From Victivallis lenta (lineage in GTDB: Bacteria; Verrucomicrobiota; Lentisphaeria; Victivallales; Victivallaceae), in contig NZ_VUNS01000021.1 in assembly GCF_009695545.1 (NCBI RefSeq), positions 1-64,000 on the forward strand: a stretch of DNA of 64,000 nucleotides, in the 5' to 3' direction. Shown piece after piece: positions 26,533 through 34,844 of the stretch. A program made the position numbers and the translations under genes. The notes under the pieces are model-generated. The model was given only the letters and a program-made list of their open reading frames with translations. It had not been told where the DNA came from and made no database searches. Every line of letters begins with the position of its first letter. Position 1 is the stretch's first letter.

Positions 26533-27552
26533 ATGAAGCGTTCGAATGCCTGCTGTAATCGGAAAAAAGCCACGATACGCGATGTCGCCATGATGGTCGG
26601 AGTTACTCCCGGCACGGTTTCGCACGCTTTCAGCGGCAAACGGGCAATCAGCGATAAAGTTCGACGACAGGTATTTGACGCCGCGCGGAAGTTGGATTAC
26701 CAGCCGAATATCATTGCCCAAGCCATGCGGAACAAAGCCACCGGATTGATCGGAATCCTGATCGATCCGGCCGGCTTACAGAAAAAACAAATGCGGCTTG
26801 CCGAAATTGTCACTACTCTGCAAATGAATCATTATGATACAATAATCGGCATGACTGCACAGGAAAAAGGAAGCGGCAATTCCATGCAGAGGTTGATTTC
26901 CGGAGGACTGATAGATGGAATGATCAGCCTTCTTCCGAAAAAATTTGATGATTGCCCGGCAATGCAGGTTCCGGTCATCGATGCCGAAGCGGAAGAACGT
27001 TCGAATTACAGGAAGGCTGCCGGGAAAGTTGTTAATTATTTTCGGGCTTGCGGGCATTGCCGAATTGGCTGCATTGCGCCGAAAGCTCATATTTTCCCCC
27101 AAGTTCTCGGCGATGTACTGGAAGAGAAAGGTATTTGGTGCGAATCGGAATATTGTTTCGAGGAAAGGGATAGCGTGGAAACCGGCATGAGCGGTGCGGA
27201 AAGACTCATCGGGCATCAGTCGGCTACAGCAGTGATCGTAATCGGCGAAGCAATTGCCGAGGGGGTATATCGGTGGGCTTCCCTGCACAAAATTCCGATT
27301 CCCGCCCGACTGTCGCTGATCGGGGTGGACATGATGAACGAGATATTCTGCCGAAAATTCTCTTTGACGACAATTCGACACACTCCGGGGGACTGGATAC
27401 AAAACGCGGTAAACAGACTTCTTTGTAAAATCAATCGTTCCGAGTTCATGCCTGATGGAATTTATCCTGAATTGATAATATGCGGTTCCGTGGCTTCCGC
27501 GTTTACGGAATTCGGCAATACCTCATGTGAGATGAAAAATGAAATTTTATGA
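26533..27552 (+). CDS. LacI-family transcriptional regulator
   Basis: Regulator of 339 residues that starts one base after the pseudopilin stop. The N-terminal helix-turn-helix reads KKATIRDVAMMVGVTPGTVSHAFSGKRAISDKVRR, with the hinge helix in LDYQPNIIAQAMRNKATGLIGIL. A periplasmic-binding-protein-like sensor domain follows (about 70-330), ending in the usual SLTTIRHTPGDWIQNAVNRLL region. It likely represses part of the surrounding operon until a sugar binds. It lies within the operon, so it may be autoregulated. Its 3' end overlaps the next gene by 14 bases. Confidence 0.88.
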   Translation: MKRSNACCNRKKATIRDVAMMVGVTPGTVSHAFSGKRAISDKVRRQVFDAARKLDYQPNIIAQAMRNKATGLIGILIDPAGLQKKQMRLAEIVTTLQMNHYDTIIGMTAQEKGSGNSMQRLISGGLIDGMISLLPKKFDDCPAMQVPVIDAEAEERSNYRKAAGKVVNYFRACGHCRIGCIAPKAHIFPQVLGDVLEEKGIWCESEYCFEERDSVETGMSGAERLIGHQSATAVIVIGEAIAEGVYRWASLHKIPIPARLSLIGVDMMNEIFCRKFSLTTIRHTPGDWIQNAVNRLLCKINRSEFMPDGIYPELIICGSVASAFTEFGNTSCEMKNEIL

Positions 27553-29035
27553 TAATTTACTGTGGATTCTGCTTATGTTTTCAAATTCAATCTTATTGCA
27601 CGCTTCTGTGATTGACGTCACCGGATTCGGAGCCCGCGGCGATGGTGTCACGGATGATCATGCCGCAATACAAAACGCAGTGGCCGAACTGAAAAAGCAC
27701 AATGGAGGAATTCTGTATTTTCCCGTCGGTCAATACCGTATTGCAACAAGCGGGCATGGCGCACTTTTTCTGGACGGTATTTCCAATGCAACCATCCGTT
27801 TTGAACCCGGAGCCGTCTTGCTGATGGACAACCTGCTGCCGGACGGCTCCGGCGGCGGTCATGGAATCGTGGTGCGCGGTCCCGGTTCCGGCATCACGCT
27901 GGAGAATATTCATGTCAGATGGGTGAAAAAAGCGATTGGCCGCAGTCATGGTGATGCATTCCGCTTCGAGGGGTATCCCAGTGACGGCAAAACCATTGCC
28001 CGGATCATCATGAACAACTGTATCGGAGAACGCAGCCCGCAGACCGGGGCGGTTTTCATGGGATGCAGTGATGTTTCCGTCAATAATTTCAGTCCGGTCG
28101 ACACCTGGGCTGACGGTTTGCATTTCAACGCCTGCCGCCGCGTAAATGTAAATGGCGTGCTGGGCTTGAACAACGGAGATGATACGCTGGCCTTTGTCAC
28201 TTATTTTGACGAAAAGTTTTCCGGGCAGACAGGAGGCGTTTTTTCTTTCCCGGATTTAAATGAGTGGTGCAATTCCGACAGCAATGCGACGAATATCACC
28301 GCCATAGGAGGGCATGCCGACGGCATGAGAATCTCCGGCGCCCGAAATATCAATGTCAGCAATCTCAATGTTTCCGGCAAATGGGCCGGAGTTCAATTGG
28401 ATTCGGCCATCAAGACGACGGAGAATGAAGCTGTCGGCTGGGGATATCCGGCTTCGCGCAACATCAATATTTCCAACGTGTCGATATCGGATTGCGATCT
28501 GGGGCTGATCGTGCGCAGCTTGAACGTGCTGCCTGACGCTTCGGAATCATTTTGGAGTTTCAAGGTCAACATCAGCAATCTGACTCTTTCCGGAATTCAT
28601 TCGCATGGAATCGACATTCAGAGTGTCGGCGGCATCCAGATCAGCAACATCCGGTCGGACAGCAGAATCAGATTTCTGAATTTGCGCGGTCCCGTTTCGC
28701 TGAACGGCCTGGATCAGACGGGCGGCTCCGTGGAGTTCACCGGCATTCAGGGGAAGCGTTTCTTCGGTTTCCGGCCGAATATGGAACCGAAGCCGATAGA
28801 GGTTTCTGGCCCGGAAGAGGTTGCGACAGGCAGCGTTCTGCTGAGCAGAGTCAACCTGACAGGAGCTCCTCTGCGGCTTGACCGCCTGGCCGGTCTCTGT
28901 ATTTCCGGACTGCGTTCCGATTCTGCAATCGAACTGAAAAACTGCCGGGATATATATTTAAATGAAACCGTCGCCGCCGATAAGCCGTCAATCGGGAATT
29001 GCCGGAAAATCTTTTTTAACGGAAGCGAGTTATAA
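27539..29035 (+). CDS. Secreted pectate-lyase-3-like beta-helix protein (first of a pair)
   Basis: Protein of 498 residues with a signal peptide (KFYDNLLWILLMFSNSILLHA). The mature start VIDVTGFGARGDGVTDDHAAIQNAV is the Pectate_lyase_3/GH28-like N-terminal signature. Beta-helix coils follow, with AVFMGCSDVSVNNF and DGLHFNACRRVNVNGVLGLNNGDDTLAF. The GDD with nearby DG and H residues resembles the acid pairs of GH28-type enzymes. A role in cleaving an acidic polysaccharide is likely; the substrate is unknown. It overlaps the LacI gene and shares one base with the next gene. Confidence 0.78.
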   Translation: MKFYDNLLWILLMFSNSILLHASVIDVTGFGARGDGVTDDHAAIQNAVAELKKHNGGILYFPVGQYRIATSGHGALFLDGISNATIRFEPGAVLLMDNLLPDGSGGGHGIVVRGPGSGITLENIHVRWVKKAIGRSHGDAFRFEGYPSDGKTIARIIMNNCIGERSPQTGAVFMGCSDVSVNNFSPVDTWADGLHFNACRRVNVNGVLGLNNGDDTLAFVTYFDEKFSGQTGGVFSFPDLNEWCNSDSNATNITAIGGHADGMRISGARNINVSNLNVSGKWAGVQLDSAIKTTENEAVGWGYPASRNINISNVSISDCDLGLIVRSLNVLPDASESFWSFKVNISNLTLSGIHSHGIDIQSVGGIQISNIRSDSRIRFLNLRGPVSLNGLDQTGGSVEFTGIQGKRFFGFRPNMEPKPIEVSGPEEVATGSVLLSRVNLTGAPLRLDRLAGLCISGLRSDSAIELKNCRDIYLNETVAADKPSIGNCRKIFFNGSEL

Positions 29036-30678
29036 TGAAGACATTTATTGGAGCAGTCTGCTTTTTTCTGTTCGTATCAACGGCACTGGCCTTGCCGATT
29101 CTGAACATCAGGGAGTTCGGTGCGGCCGGAGATGGAATCGCTGATGATTCGGCAGCCCTGAAACAGGCTGCCGAACGACTGAAGAGCAATGGCGGCGGCA
29201 CTCTGGAATTTCCGGCCGGAACATACCGTATCGGAACCGTGGGAGGTGGTCTGATCCTGGATGAACAGAGCAATGTGAAAGTTGTTTTTGCTGATGGAGC
29301 GGTTTTGCTGATGGACAACCTGCTGCCTGACGGCAATGGGGGCGGGCATGGCATAACAGTACGCGGTCCCGCCAAAAATATTGAACTTCATAACATTAAA
29401 GTCCAGTGGAAGAATAAAGCGCGTACCCGAAGCAACGGCGATGGTTTCCGTTTTGAAGGTTATCCGGATAGCCGTCGAACGCTGAAGCGGATCCGGATGG
29501 AAAATTGTCAAGTCCTGAAAAGTGCTCAGACTGGAGCCGTTTTCATGGGGTGCAGTGATGTGACGGTACGGAACTTCACCATACGGGAGAGTTGGGGGGA
29601 CGGGCTCCATTTCAATGCCTGCCGGAATGTCGATGTTGAAGGGGTTACCGGAATTCAGACCGGAGATGACACACTGGCATTCGTTACTTATTATGCGGAA
29701 AAACCGGAGGGGAAAATCGGAACCGTATTCTCTTTGCCTGATTTGGGAGAATGGAACAATTCCGGCTCTGTGGCCAGGCATGTCCGTTCAACAGGCGGCA
29801 ATGCCAACGGAATACGTATTTCCGGAGCTCAGGCCGTGAAAATATCGGATGTCGAAGTGGACAGCAAGGTGGGGTGCGGCATTATCATCGATGCCGGAAT
29901 GATCAGCAAGATCAATTTATGGCAATATCTGGCCAGCCGCAATATCGAAATCAATGACGTAAAGGTGAAAAACTGTAATACGGGATTGTACATCATGCAG
30001 TTTGACCCGGCATTCAGCAATCCTGATTTTTATGAATTCGATGTCCGATGCGGTGATTTTCAAATTGAAAACTGTGATAATGACAGCGTGCACCTGAGCG
30101 GAGTATCGGGCGTCGAACTGGCCGATTTCCTCACAACCGGCTGCCGCTGGCGGTTTCGGACAGTTGCCGATTGCCGGCTCAGAAATGCAGATATCAGGGA
30201 AGGCGCCTTTCTGATCATCGGACAGGATGAAGCAATCGATCCGGCTCGAATCGAACAGCTCCATGACTGCAACATCCGGGTTTCAAATCTGAAAATAACT
30301 CATGGAAACCTTGGAATTCAGCGTTGTCGGAATCTTGGCATGCACAATCTTGAGATTTCCGGTTCTCCCGGCAGTTCCGTTTCCGTCTTCCAGACACTGG
30401 AATCCGGTTTCTCCGAGTTGAAACTCGAAAACATGAACTTGGCGGAAACAACTCCTTTTGCGGTTCAAATACTGCAAAGCCGGAATATTCATTTTGACAA
30501 AGTCGATGTGATTTCATCAAAACCGCTGACCGCGGCATTCGAACTCGGCGGGGGAGATGAAAATCTCACCACGGATCTCATCACCATTGAAGAATTGGCC
30601 GTTCAGCCCTCCGGGATGCTTCCTGTGCTTTCGCAGACCGGTCCGTATGGGGTGACGCATTGGCAGAATCTTCCCTGA
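29035..30678 (+). CDS. Secreted pectate-lyase-3-like beta-helix protein (second of a pair)
   Basis: Protein of 547 residues, signal peptide MKTFIGAVCFFLFVSTALA. It is a clear paralogue of the preceding gene: ILNIREFGAAGDGIADDSAALKQAA, LMDNLLPDGNGGGHGI, AVFMGCSDVTVRNF and DGLHFNACRNVDVEGVTGIQTGDDTLAF are nearly shared. The two probably act on the same glycan, possibly with different bond or branch preference. Its ATG overlaps the previous stop (TAATG), so the genes are translationally coupled. The C-terminal 150 residues diverge from the partner. The acid residues in TGDDT are conserved in both. Confidence 0.78.
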   Translation: MKTFIGAVCFFLFVSTALALPILNIREFGAAGDGIADDSAALKQAAERLKSNGGGTLEFPAGTYRIGTVGGGLILDEQSNVKVVFADGAVLLMDNLLPDGNGGGHGITVRGPAKNIELHNIKVQWKNKARTRSNGDGFRFEGYPDSRRTLKRIRMENCQVLKSAQTGAVFMGCSDVTVRNFTIRESWGDGLHFNACRNVDVEGVTGIQTGDDTLAFVTYYAEKPEGKIGTVFSLPDLGEWNNSGSVARHVRSTGGNANGIRISGAQAVKISDVEVDSKVGCGIIIDAGMISKINLWQYLASRNIEINDVKVKNCNTGLYIMQFDPAFSNPDFYEFDVRCGDFQIENCDNDSVHLSGVSGVELADFLTTGCRWRFRTVADCRLRNADIREGAFLIIGQDEAIDPARIEQLHDCNIRVSNLKITHGNLGIQRCRNLGMHNLEISGSPGSSVSVFQTLESGFSELKLENMNLAETTPFAVQILQSRNIHFDKVDVISSKPLTAAFELGGGDENLTTDLITIEELAVQPSGMLPVLSQTGPYGVTHWQNLP

Positions 30679-30703
30679 ACGTATCGGACGGAAAGTTTGA
30701 AAA

Positions 30704-32134
30704 ATGAAATCATACCATATTCTATTTCTTCTGGTCGTAAATTGCATGCTTCATGCTGTTACGCCGGGTTCTGTCTTTTCCGACAATATGGTCATACAGA
30801 GAGACGCTCCTGTGCGAGTCTGGGGAACGGCGGCTCCGGGCGAAACCGTCACCGTTACGTTTCGCGGCGCCAGTGCATCTGCTGTCGCGGATCGTAACGG
30901 CAGATGGCTGGCTGCACTTCCCGCCTTTCCGGCTTCTGACCGGGGGGCCGCTTTGAAAATCAGTGGAAGGACAACGGTTACATATGATAATGTACTGACC
31001 GGCGATATCTGGCTATGTGCCGGACAATCCAATATGCAGTTTGAACTCAGTCGAGTGAAGAACGGCGCAAAGTTGGCGGCAGAAAGCACGAATAACAAAA
31101 TCCGCCTGCTGCAAATTCCGCTTGCCTGGAACAGGAATCCTGTAAATCATACAGATGCGAAATGGCAGGAGTGCATGCCGGAGACGGCAGGGAATTTCTC
31201 GGCAGTCGGTTATTTGTTTGGCCGCAGAATTGCTGATCAAACCGGAATTCCGGTTGGTTTGATAAATATATCCTGGGGCGGCTGCCGCATCGAGGCCATG
31301 ATTGATGAAAATGCTTGGAAAACAGTTCCGGTTTCCCCAAAGGTTGCCGACGGCTTTCGACGCGAACTTGCCGATATGGACATGAAAGATGACAATGAGT
31401 TACGGGAGGATAAGCAGAGGCTTGCGTCCGTATTGTACAATGCAATGGTATATCCATTATCCCCGATGTCGGTAAAAGGGATGCTGTGGTATCAGGGCGA
31501 AGACAACCATACAGAGGGAATGGAATATGCGGAGAAGCTGCAGATGCTGGCATACTCCTGGCGAAAATGTTTTCAGCAGGAGTCCATGCCTGTCTATATT
31601 GTACAACTTCCGCCTTTCGGATACGGAGAGGAGCCGCCTTTTTTCCTTCCGCGTTTCCGAATGGCTCAGCAGATGTTTGCACAATCCGATCCATATTCCG
31701 GTTTCATTGTTACCACAGACTGCGGTGATCCGAACGATATTCACCCGGTTGATAAAATCCCATTGGTACATCGCCTGGCCGATCTGGCGCTTTACAAAAG
31801 TTATGGGATCGGTAATTCAGAAGCCCTGGCTCCCACTTGTGCAAAAATCGAATTCAAACGTGATCAGGCTGTTGTTTCGTTCATGAACGCGAATGGCTTG
31901 AGGAGCAGAGACGGGAACGCAATCAGCCATTTGGAAATTGCCGGTGCCGACAAGATTTTCCATCGGGCAAATGGCATTATTTGCAATGACCGATTATTGG
32001 TATCGTCTCCTTTGGTAAAAGCACCTGCATATCTGCGTTTCGGCTGGCATAAAACAGCAAATCCGAATCTGGTAAACCGCTCGGGAAATCCAGTTGCACC
32101 GTTTTCCAGCTGCAACCATTCAATTTCCTTTTGA
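30704..32134 (+). CDS. Secreted sialate O-acetylesterase-like protein (SASA family)
   Basis: Protein of 476 residues with a signal peptide (MKSYHILFLLVVNCMLHA). The N-terminal beta domain (SVFSDNMVIQRDAPVRVWGTAAPGE) is followed by the SASA core: LCAGQSNMQFE with the nucleophile Ser, GLINISWGG, MLWYQGEDN and DPNDIHPVDK with the Asp-x-x-His-type acid/His. These are the blocks of 9-O-acetylesterase and acetylxylan-esterase-like enzymes. In this operon it most likely deacetylates the glycan cut by the beta-helix proteins. It is the last gene of the AT-rich island. I see no clear terminator behind it. Confidence 0.85.
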   Translation: MKSYHILFLLVVNCMLHAVTPGSVFSDNMVIQRDAPVRVWGTAAPGETVTVTFRGASASAVADRNGRWLAALPAFPASDRGAALKISGRTTVTYDNVLTGDIWLCAGQSNMQFELSRVKNGAKLAAESTNNKIRLLQIPLAWNRNPVNHTDAKWQECMPETAGNFSAVGYLFGRRIADQTGIPVGLINISWGGCRIEAMIDENAWKTVPVSPKVADGFRRELADMDMKDDNELREDKQRLASVLYNAMVYPLSPMSVKGMLWYQGEDNHTEGMEYAEKLQMLAYSWRKCFQQESMPVYIVQLPPFGYGEEPPFFLPRFRMAQQMFAQSDPYSGFIVTTDCGDPNDIHPVDKIPLVHRLADLALYKSYGIGNSEALAPTCAKIEFKRDQAVVSFMNANGLRSRDGNAISHLEIAGADKIFHRANGIICNDRLLVSSPLVKAPAYLRFGWHKTANPNLVNRSGNPVAPFSSCNHSISF

Positions 32135-32291
32135 AAACCATGGATAGGAAAGATTGTCAAAGCTGAAACACGCAGCGAAGCCGCCCGTTTTCCCGCCGCT
32201 TTCTCCCGGTATCCTGACGGCTGGATGCCGGGGCGGAATAAATTTGATCTTTTCCTGATTCAGCTCTTGACAAACGGGGATAAATCCATCA

Positions 32292-32317
32292 TGTCTAATA
32301 TAGACAACATGTTGTCT
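32292..32317. promoter_or_regulatory. Nested operator palindromes before the broken LacI gene
   Basis: Two dyads share bases: TGTCTA-ATA-TAGACA (32292-32306) and the perfect AGACAACATGTTGTCT (32302-32317). A TTGACA lies just upstream at 32267-32272, although its -10 box is not clear. The site is 40 bases before the start of the LacI-type gene at 32358, so autoregulation is the natural reading. Confidence 0.5.
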
Positions 32318-32357
32318 GGTGCGGTTTGCAATTCAATGTACAGGACAAGCTGATGAT

Positions 32358-32880
32358 ATGGAAAAGAAGCGCAGCAACATCCGGGATCTTGCGAAAGCGG
32401 CCGGGCTTTCGGCCGGAACGGTCTCGCGGATACTGAACAACCGCCCCGGAGATATGAAGATTCCGGAAACCACTCGCGCCCGTGTGGTCGAGCTGGCCCG
32501 GAAGATGGAGTACGTTCCGAATATTCACGCTCAGCGGCTGTTTTCGAAACGTTCCGGCGTGATCGGGCTGATTATCCCGTCGGCGGAACGCAACGGCTCC
32601 CCAGTGTTCGGCTGTACGCATCTGTCGCATGTGCTGGCCGGAATGGAGCGGGAGCTTGACGCGACCTTCCGGCGGCTCGAGCTCCACCCGGCCGGTCGCC
32701 GCCGCCGTGACGCTGCCCGGGCTCCCGGCCGGCCGTTACCGCCTCCGGCGCGTCAGCAACGGCGGCGCCGAAGAGGGAATCGTCGGCAACGGCGGATTCC
32801 GGCTGCTCCTGACTCCGCATGAACTGCGCGTCTATGAGCTCATTCCCGTCGATTCGCGTCAAATCAGGCCGCGGAAATGA
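32358..32880 (+). pseudogene. Truncated LacI-family regulator joined to the 3' end of an unrelated gene
   Basis: From the ATG at 32358 the frame encodes a normal LacI helix-turn-helix (NIRDLAKAAGLSAGTVSRILN), the hinge and the start of the sensor domain (KRSGVIGLIIPSAERNG to HVLAGMERELDA). After about 32670 this frame turns into an Arg-rich nonsense tail ending at 32822. From there another frame reads VTLPGLPAGRYRLRRVSNGG and LLLTPHELRVYELIPVD to the stop at 32880, which looks like the last beta-sandwich strands of a glycosidase. I interpret this as a deletion that fused two genes out of frame. The alternative is an assembly error. About 250 residues of the sensor domain are missing. Confidence 0.6.
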
Positions 32881-32894
32881 CAGGAGGGAATGCG

Positions 32895-33875
32895 TCAGAG
32901 AGCGGATTGCATGATGAGCCATGCGGTATAGGCAATATAAATCAGGAGGAGGAAAACGCCTTCCAGCCGCGAAATTTTCCAGCCGGTGCGCATGATCGGC
33001 AGCAGCAGGACCGAACAGAGAAGCATGACGCCGAGGTCGACATAGCTGAGCGTCGCGTTCCGGAGCGGGGAGATCAGCGGAGCGATGCCGAGGATTGCGA
33101 AGACGTTGAAGATGTTCGAGCCGACCACGTTGCCGATGGCGATATCCTTTTCGCCGCGGACGGCGGCGACGACCGAGGTCGCCAGCTCCGGCAGGCTGGT
33201 GCCGACTGCGACCAGGGTGAGGCCGATCACGGCGTCGCTGACCTGCAGCAGCCGGGCGAAAAATACGGAGCCGGCGAGGAAGAGCTTCGCGCCGAGGATC
33301 AGGAGCGCGAGCCCGGCGATGGTCAGGAGGACGGCGGCGGGGAGGCGCATTGCCTTGGCATTTCCGGAGGAGACGGATTTCCGCGCCTCCTCGACGACGG
33401 CGGCGTTGACGGCCGCTTCGCGCTTCGCCTGCCGCACGCTCCAGGCCGTATAGAGGATGATCGCCGCGAAAAAGATTGCGCCGTGGATGCGGCTGATGCC
33501 GTGCCCGGTCAGGTAGAATATGGTCAGCATGGCGGCGGCCAGCAGCATGACCGGCGCGTCGAACTGGAACAGATGCGTGTTGACCCGGAGCGGGGTGATG
33601 ACGGCGCAGAGTCCGAGGATCAGCGCGATATTGCAGATATTCGAGCCGACCACGTTGCCGAGACTGATGTCGGCGTTGCCCGCGATGGCGGCGTCGACGC
33701 TGACCACCAGTTCCGGCGCGCTGGTGGCGAAGGCGACGAGCGTGAGCCCGATGACCAGCGGGGAGATGCGGCATCTCTCCGCGATGCGCACGCCGCCGCG
33801 CACGAGAAATTCCGCGCCGTAATAGAGGGCGGCGACGCCGGAGGCGCCGTAGAACAGGTTCAGAATCGTTTGCAT
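32895..33875 (-). CDS. Calcium/sodium antiporter (CaCA family, YrbG-like)
   Basis: Inner-membrane protein of 326 residues with about ten hydrophobic segments. It contains the two inverted alpha-repeats of the cation/Ca exchanger family: GLTLVAFATSAPELVVSVDAAIAGNADISLGNVVGSNICN near residue 45 and GLTLVAVGTSLPELATSVVAAVRGEKDIAIGNVVGSNIFN near 220. Both keep the PEL and GNxxGSN ion-binding motifs. It probably exchanges Ca or a similar cation against Na or protons. It is a single-gene unit on the minus strand, converging with the broken LacI gene. Confidence 0.92.
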   Translation of the reverse strand: MQTILNLFYGASGVAALYYGAEFLVRGGVRIAERCRISPLVIGLTLVAFATSAPELVVSVDAAIAGNADISLGNVVGSNICNIALILGLCAVITPLRVNTHLFQFDAPVMLLAAAMLTIFYLTGHGISRIHGAIFFAAIILYTAWSVRQAKREAAVNAAVVEEARKSVSSGNAKAMRLPAAVLLTIAGLALLILGAKLFLAGSVFFARLLQVSDAVIGLTLVAVGTSLPELATSVVAAVRGEKDIAIGNVVGSNIFNVFAILGIAPLISPLRNATLSYVDLGVMLLCSVLLLPIMRTGWKISRLEGVFLLLIYIAYTAWLIMQSAL

Positions 33876-34003
33876 GAAACTCCCCCGGGTTCGGTCAGTT
33901 GTTTTTCCGGAATTTGGAAAAATAGCCCTTTTTTGTAGAATGTCAAGCGGAAATTTTATGAAAACGGGTTATATTACGAAATCAGACAGAGGTGATGAAT
34001 TCT

Positions 34004-34483
34004 ATGGAAAACAAGGCGGAAACGGCGAAACGGCTCTTTCTCTCCGGGGCGAACTGCTCCCAGGCGGTGATCGGCGCGTTTCAGCCGGAGTGCGGGATTG
34101 ATTTCGATACGGCGATGCGCATCGCTTCGGGCTTCGGCGGCGGCATGGGGCGGCTGCGCGAGGTGTGCGGCGCGGTCTCCGGCATGTTCATGGCGGCAGG
34201 GCTGCTGCGCGGCAGCTCCGATTTGCGGGATAAGGCGGCCAAGGATGCGCACTATGCGCTGATTCAGGAGCTGGCGGAGGCGTTCCGGCGCGAGAACGGT
34301 TCGATCGTCTGCCGCGAGCTGCTCGGGCTCGGCGCCGCGCAGGCGGACCGGCCCGTCTCCGAAGCGCGCACGCCGGAGTATTACCGCAAGCGTCCGTGCG
34401 CGGAGCTGGTGGCATTCGCAGCCGGGCTGCTGGAGGAGAAACTGAAGGAACGGCTCCGGGCGGAATCCGGAGTCGGGCAGTAA
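34004..34483 (+). CDS. C_GCAxxG_C_C family protein
   Basis: Protein of about 159 residues. The Cys pattern of the family is complete: GANCSQAV, then GFGGGMGRLREVCGAVSG, then CRELLG and KRPCAELV. Members are thought to be redox or metal-binding proteins, often near uncharacterised oxidoreductases. Their biochemical role is unsettled. I prefer the ATG at 34004 because AGAGGTG is suitably spaced from it; upstream ATG and GTG codons in the same frame sit directly on that site. The next gene follows 16 bases later and is probably co-transcribed. Confidence 0.85.
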   Translation: MENKAETAKRLFLSGANCSQAVIGAFQPECGIDFDTAMRIASGFGGGMGRLREVCGAVSGMFMAAGLLRGSSDLRDKAAKDAHYALIQELAEAFRRENGSIVCRELLGLGAAQADRPVSEARTPEYYRKRPCAELVAFAAGLLEEKLKERLRAESGVGQ

Positions 34484-34499
34484 CTGGGAGATGCCTGCG

Positions 34500-34844
34500 A
34501 TGAAGAAAGTGAAAATCACGGTTCTGAAAACGACTCTGGACGAGGAGCTGGCCCGGGAGTACGGTGCGGAGGGGCTCAAGGCATGTCCGATGCTGAAGGC
34601 CGGGCAGGTCTTTTACGCGGATTACGCGAAGCCGGATGGTTTTTGCGACGAAGCCTGGAAGGCGATTTATCAGTATGTGTTCGCCCTTGCGCACGGCGCG
34701 GGGGAGGGGCTGTTCTACTACGGCGACTGGATTCGGAAACCGGGCGTTGCGATCTGCAGCTGCAACGACGGGCTGCGGCCGGTGATCTTCAAGCTTGAAG
34801 CCACCGGCGAGACGTCGGAGATCAATTACACGCCGGTCCACTGA
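34500..34844 (+). CDS. TIGR04076-family protein
   Basis: Protein of 114 residues from the ATG at 34500, which has GGGAG nine bases before it; an ATG at 34491 would leave no spacing. The sequence KVKITVLKTTLDEELAREYG, CDEAWKAIYQYVFALAHGAG and the C-terminal GVAICSCNDGLRPVIFKLEATG are characteristic of this small conserved family found in anaerobes. The conserved Cys residues (ACPM, FCDEAW, CSCNDG) suggest metal or cofactor binding. No function is known. It follows a C_GCAxxG_C_C gene, another Cys-rich small protein, so the two may act together. Confidence 0.8.
   Translation: MKKVKITVLKTTLDEELAREYGAEGLKACPMLKAGQVFYADYAKPDGFCDEAWKAIYQYVFALAHGAGEGLFYYGDWIRKPGVAICSCNDGLRPVIFKLEATGETSEINYTPVH

Follow-up and report, generated by a model that had tools for sequence, protein, structure and literature searches.

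At positions 32358-32880 of the window, by which we mean the whole stretch of 64,000 nucleotides from Victivallis lenta that was analysed, a reading frame begins like a LacI-type repressor and is followed, in a different frame, by the end of another gene. Does this locus code for a shortened repressor that is blind to its inducer, as the initial annotation had suggested, or is it what remains of a lost operon? We consider it highly probable that a single deletion of ~8 kb inside an autoregulated operon for sugar degradation left this locus as a scar, in which the first and last genes are joined out of frame. Most likely the scar is an ordinary dead remnant and not a new type of regulator.

Two gene fragments and their junction

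The first fragment is the 5′ remnant of a lacI gene on the plus strand (32358-32684, residues 1-109), which comprises the DNA-binding domain, the hinge and the first part of the core. The frame starting at the ATG at 32358 matches Pfam family PF00356 (1.5e-11, 44.3 bits, cut-off 27). Over these 109 residues it shares 74-75% amino acid identity with the intact LacI (362 aa, contig C84) of a Victivallis MAG from the same genus, referred to as G001. The N-terminal helix-turn-helix of LacI type and the hinge are present, and 17 PDB sequences of the LacI/CcpA type align inside residues 2-82 of the remnant. The C-terminal sensor and dimerisation core is missing: the G001 orthologue carries PF13377 at residues 195-330, while the window ORF has no Peripla_BP match at E<=0.1. 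At the DNA level, the lacI match to G001 stops at 32660. The similarity at the protein level extends to 32684 and thus slightly past ~32670, the position (within about 15 bases) at which the LacI frame had been said to turn from normal into nonsense, an observation that we confirm. From there the frame continues with 45 arginine-rich nonsense residues and then a stop (32685-32822, plus strand), which gives an ORF of 154 aa in total.

The second fragment, also on the plus strand, is the 3′ remnant of a gene for a protein with a beta-helix and a GH42-like region (32680-32880). It lies in the +1 frame relative to lacI and shares 59-61% amino acid identity with the C-terminus of its G001 counterpart, so that the claim of an other-frame tail from a different gene also holds. 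One search gave 60% identity over 58 residues (E 2e-14) and a second one 59% (E 3e-16). The tail ORF spans 32629-32880, with the stop at 32880, and about 57-58 of its residues can be aligned; the DNA match to G001 begins at 32714. Within a stretch of 907 aa from G001, PF02449 is found at 332-539, and the window covers only residues 848-905 of that stretch, so that the catalytic TIM-barrel region of the GH42-like protein is not in the window.

The similarities to the two parental peptides meet, as judged by eye, at 32676-32686 (plus strand), and we place the deletion junction there with a precision of about ten bases; the DNA matches set its outer limits at 32660-32714. Because the two frames are one base apart, there is no in-frame fusion. 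A LacI-glycosidase fusion protein was considered and rejected on account of this frame difference and of the end of the LacI frame at 32822. No verdict on microhomology at the join is possible, since the parental sequences of the window no longer exist; between the two equivalent points of G001 there is no convincing shared run. Repeats within 32100-33000 are equally silent on the cause of the deletion, since a deletion keeps just one copy of the repeat that it has used.

The gene order in a related Victivallis genome

Among the genomes searched, each half of the locus has one close relative, and both relatives occur in G001. There, lacI is on the minus strand of contig C84, and the GH42-like relative has an ORF that extends up to the very beginning of contig C1. 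The first 190 bases of these two contigs match each other in opposite orientation (95.8%, 8 mismatches, five of which lie within a T-run at the C1 end). From this overlap of contig ends we infer that the operon is contiguous in G001. The joined contigs would carry four ORFs on the same strand, beginning with lacI (362 aa). It is followed by a GH42-like gene (1018 aa, PF02449), the start of which overlaps the lacI stop, and by a pseudopilin-like gene with a prepilin-type N-terminus (222 aa). The last gene (1219 aa) has an N-terminal beta-helix region and a GH42-like region, and its frame is unbroken across the contig join.

Based on this joined gene order, the two fragments in the window would derive from a single operon, one from the beginning of its first gene and the other from the end of its last. 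In G001, 7999 nt separate the positions that are equivalent to the window junction, and the interior that lies between them, across the putative contig join, is absent from the window. The comparison with relatives that the initial annotation had proposed thus finds both genes intact, at the ends of one putative operon. It supports the claimed deletion, in which the LacI sensor domain and the 5′ portion of a glycosidase-like gene were lost, and enlarges it to ~8.0 kb, including two whole genes in between. What the window still has in common with the G001 operon are the two fragments, together with the -35 box and the operator; it lacks the -10 box and about 8.0 kb of sequence. As no intact allele from the window's own species was available, the size of the deletion and its origin in a single event are taken from another species, that of G001.

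Close copies of the missing parts were not found at other places in the window's genome, a 5.55-Mb assembly of 78 contigs (99.9% complete) in which the window is located on contig C21. For the missing LacI part there are 12 matches at E<=1e-5, with just 23-35% identity. The 907-aa glycosidase query has 24 matches, namely the window tail (61%) and 23 partial ones, each with at most 39%; the 1018-aa gene is matched at E<=1e-10 by only two sequences, both partial and C-terminal (34% and 30%). Translocation of the missing parts to another place in this genome was rejected because close copies were not found. The search was extended to 78 genomes of the family. When the best candidates from a first look were taken (up to 16 per genome), the glycosidase body (607-aa query) was found at E<=1e-30 in G001 only. 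The LacI query, with up to 26 such candidates per genome, gave 22 matches at E<=1e-40 in 8 of the 78 genomes, and among these candidates only the C84 gene of G001 and the window remnant exceed 41% identity.

The join could also be an artefact in a genome that really has both genes intact, and the assembly is a draft in 78 contigs. However, the junction is internal to a contig of 94 kb. The assembly contains no second, nearly identical copy of the surrounding 801 bases that might lead to a misjoin (the two other matches reach 67% over 209 and 76% over 67 bases), and no close copy of the missing sequence was found in spite of the completeness of 99.9%. In addition, the -10 box described below is a separate lesion, and a misjoin would not produce such degradation. 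For these four reasons we regard an assembly chimera as very unlikely. The 27-mer at the junction has 0 matches in viral contigs, which is uninformative on this point.

We thus favour a deletion. In the ancestral state, the order would have been operator, lacI, GH42-like gene, pseudopilin-like gene and beta-helix/GH42-like gene. With the deletion, the two middle genes would have been lost completely, along with the greater part of the LacI core domain and all of the final gene except for its last ~60 codons, and the ends would have been rejoined out of frame. The remnant would not be expected to yield a dimeric inducible repressor, and it would be left without any structural genes of its own operon to control. 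Decay of the promoter may have preceded or followed the deletion. That there was a single event, how the events were ordered, that the operon was autoregulated and that the remnant has lost its function are what we infer from this comparison.

Promoter, operator and the truncated repressor

The former operon promoter is half retained. Its -35 hexamer TTGACA (32267-32272, plus strand) agrees with the consensus at 6/6 positions and is aligned with that of G001. The hexamer CATGTC (32290-32295, plus strand), 17 nt after it, agrees at only 2/6 positions with a -10 box; G001 has CATAAT there, and its promoter TTGACA-N17-CATAAT reaches 11/12. A comparison was made with LacI paralogues of the window's genome, for which the best 7 of 36 other LacI matches were used, the gene start being that of the match and not the annotated one. 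Four of the seven (C10, C27, C34 and C9) have a perfect TTGACA-N17-TATAAT at a similar position. The other three have no strong promoter (9/12 for C14 and C1, 7/12 for C17). A promoter scan of 32100-33000 in the window detected no promoter-like site. The hexamer TCTAAT (5/6) occurs 21 nt downstream of the -35 box, a spacing that is too long for the usual promoter of sigma-70 type.

The paralogue on C17 (93553-93837, L099) lies in an open frame of 632 aa, well above the usual length of a LacI, and a GH42-like relative is found ~5 kb away from it. Three of the four paralogues with a perfect promoter (C10, L095; C27, L096; C34, L100; C9, L101) have a perfect inverted repeat with arms of 6-8 downstream of it. 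The repeats of C10 and C9 have AACATGTT as their core, and the centre is AT, not the CG that is reported as usual for LacI-family operators.

Close to the damaged promoter lies a predicted palindromic operator, TAGACAACATGTTGTCTG (32301-32318). This 18-base palindrome is positioned about 40-57 bases upstream of the start codon, and 17 of its 18 positions are the same as before the intact lacI of G001. When up to two mismatches are allowed, there is one site in the window's genome and one in G001, each before the lacI gene concerned, and none in 7 other genomes of the genus. The 16-base core had 0 matches in 100 shuffles of the window. Perfect palindromes with 8-base arms are common, with 35 listings per 64 kb in the window (nested ones being counted repeatedly). 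Palindromy alone thus carries no weight, and the case for an operator is based on a sequence that is conserved, well placed and rare. That there is a single site has to be qualified by a palindrome at the C9 paralogue, AAACAACATGTTGTTT, which differs at 2 of the 16 central positions and is beyond the limit of the 18-base search. The conserved palindrome probably marks the binding site of the LacI concerned, and the scar in this way suggests an operator assignment for the repressor of the lost operon.

A repressor that is still made and permanently bound to its own operator would be compatible with the deletion. The DNA-binding domain and the hinge are intact in sequence, the operator has been kept, the frame is open to 154 aa, the C9 palindrome could be cross-bound, and TCTAAT is found past the -35 box. 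Proteins of the LacI family dimerise mainly via an interface in the core domain, and binding by the remnant is therefore predicted to be weak at best. The dimerisation core has been lost, the tail that replaces it is out-of-frame nonsense, and the normally spaced -10 box is degraded. Of the genes downstream of the operator in G001, the window's genome retains no close copy, and its only operator within two mismatches stands before the remnant itself. Given the out-of-frame join, the loss of the sensor domain and of the apparent target genes, and the degraded -10 box, we consider a working inducer-blind repressor, as put forward in the initial annotation, very doubtful. Since the apparent target genes are gone and the -10 box is degraded, the locus is likely to be a non-functional pseudogene scar that results from ordinary gene decay.

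Genomic surroundings and comparison with known systems

Directly before the scar, at 26533-32134 (plus strand), the window has an apparently intact lacI (PF00356 and PF13377), two beta-helix genes of pectate-lyase-like type and an esterase of SASA type. A putative C_GCAxxG_C_C redox protein (PF09719, 1.5e-36) and a 117-aa protein without Pfam match are found at 33992-34844. The genes that flank the scar were not detected next to the G001 operon. Synteny was also addressed via the neighbouring Na/Ca exchanger: stretches from G004 (15.8 kb) and G006 (18.0 kb) match the ORFs at 24-42 kb of the window over the exchanger gene only, and a search of G001 detected no exchanger at E<=1e-30. The last operon gene in G001 is directly followed on its 3′ side by a tRNA-Leu gene (minus strand, L034 2880-2964), and as the window has no tRNA genes, the flank of the operon differs between the two.

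A rearrangement that has united two unrelated fragments, with no internal deletion in an operon, would be consistent with such flanks. The other ORFs at 24-42 kb match G001 contigs only weakly, at apparently paralogous positions, and operon contiguity in G001 is itself deduced from the overlap. However, the fragments are the start and the end of one run of same-strand genes in G001, with order and orientation kept, so that we see only a very remote chance for this explanation. The points that speak against a deletion scar are the join of two contigs in G001, the recourse to another species for the size and the single origin of the deletion, the genome searches that scored the best first-look candidates, the neighbours of the scar that are not seen next to the G001 operon, and the low dN/dS of the lacI part (dN 0.19, dS 1.11 by NG86, compared to G001). 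The latter mainly records selection that predates the deletion and gives no date for it. With these points taken into account, the deletion scar is still the reading that we hold to be highly probable.

Two partial GH42-like matches elsewhere in the window's genome have stops inside their frames (C9 28697-29176, one TGA; C1 20690-21247, two TGA and one TAA), hinting at more decaying members of this family. The loss of one operon would have rewired another one if the remnant were expressed from a different promoter and acted, as a 154-aa protein with DNA binding only and a basic tail, as a ligand-blind competitor at the C9 lacI palindrome, which we consider extremely unlikely.

In a search of the literature on Victivallis vadensis and LacI, no paper on the locus was found, judging by the title or the beginning of the abstract, and Victivallis was not mentioned among the matches listed in a broader search. 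The scar is a clear example of the joint loss of a regulator and its operon, in a genome with many genes for LacI repressors and glycosidases. Its interest is local, and a new mechanism is not implied.

The locus resembles the deletion-fusion pseudogenes of bacteria, in which the interior of an operon has been lost and the first and last genes have been fused out of frame, and there is no notable difference from these. The operon itself can be compared with a survey of the LacI family, in which nearly 90% of the repressors are local, 943 TFs (72%) are autoregulated, sites at 140 to 30 bp upstream of the start codon make up more than 75%, and a CG centre of the operator is reported for 1173 TFs (PMC4052901). 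The locus shares with the local repressors of carbohydrate operons described there the DNA-binding domain, the upstream palindrome and an apparently autoregulated local layout. It differs in that the ligand and dimerisation domain has been deleted in the window, and in the centre of the operator, which is AT (ACATGT) in the window and CG in the survey (PMC4052901). The arrangement in G001 fits a local, autoregulated LacI repressor, which is the commonest kind in the survey (PMC4052901).
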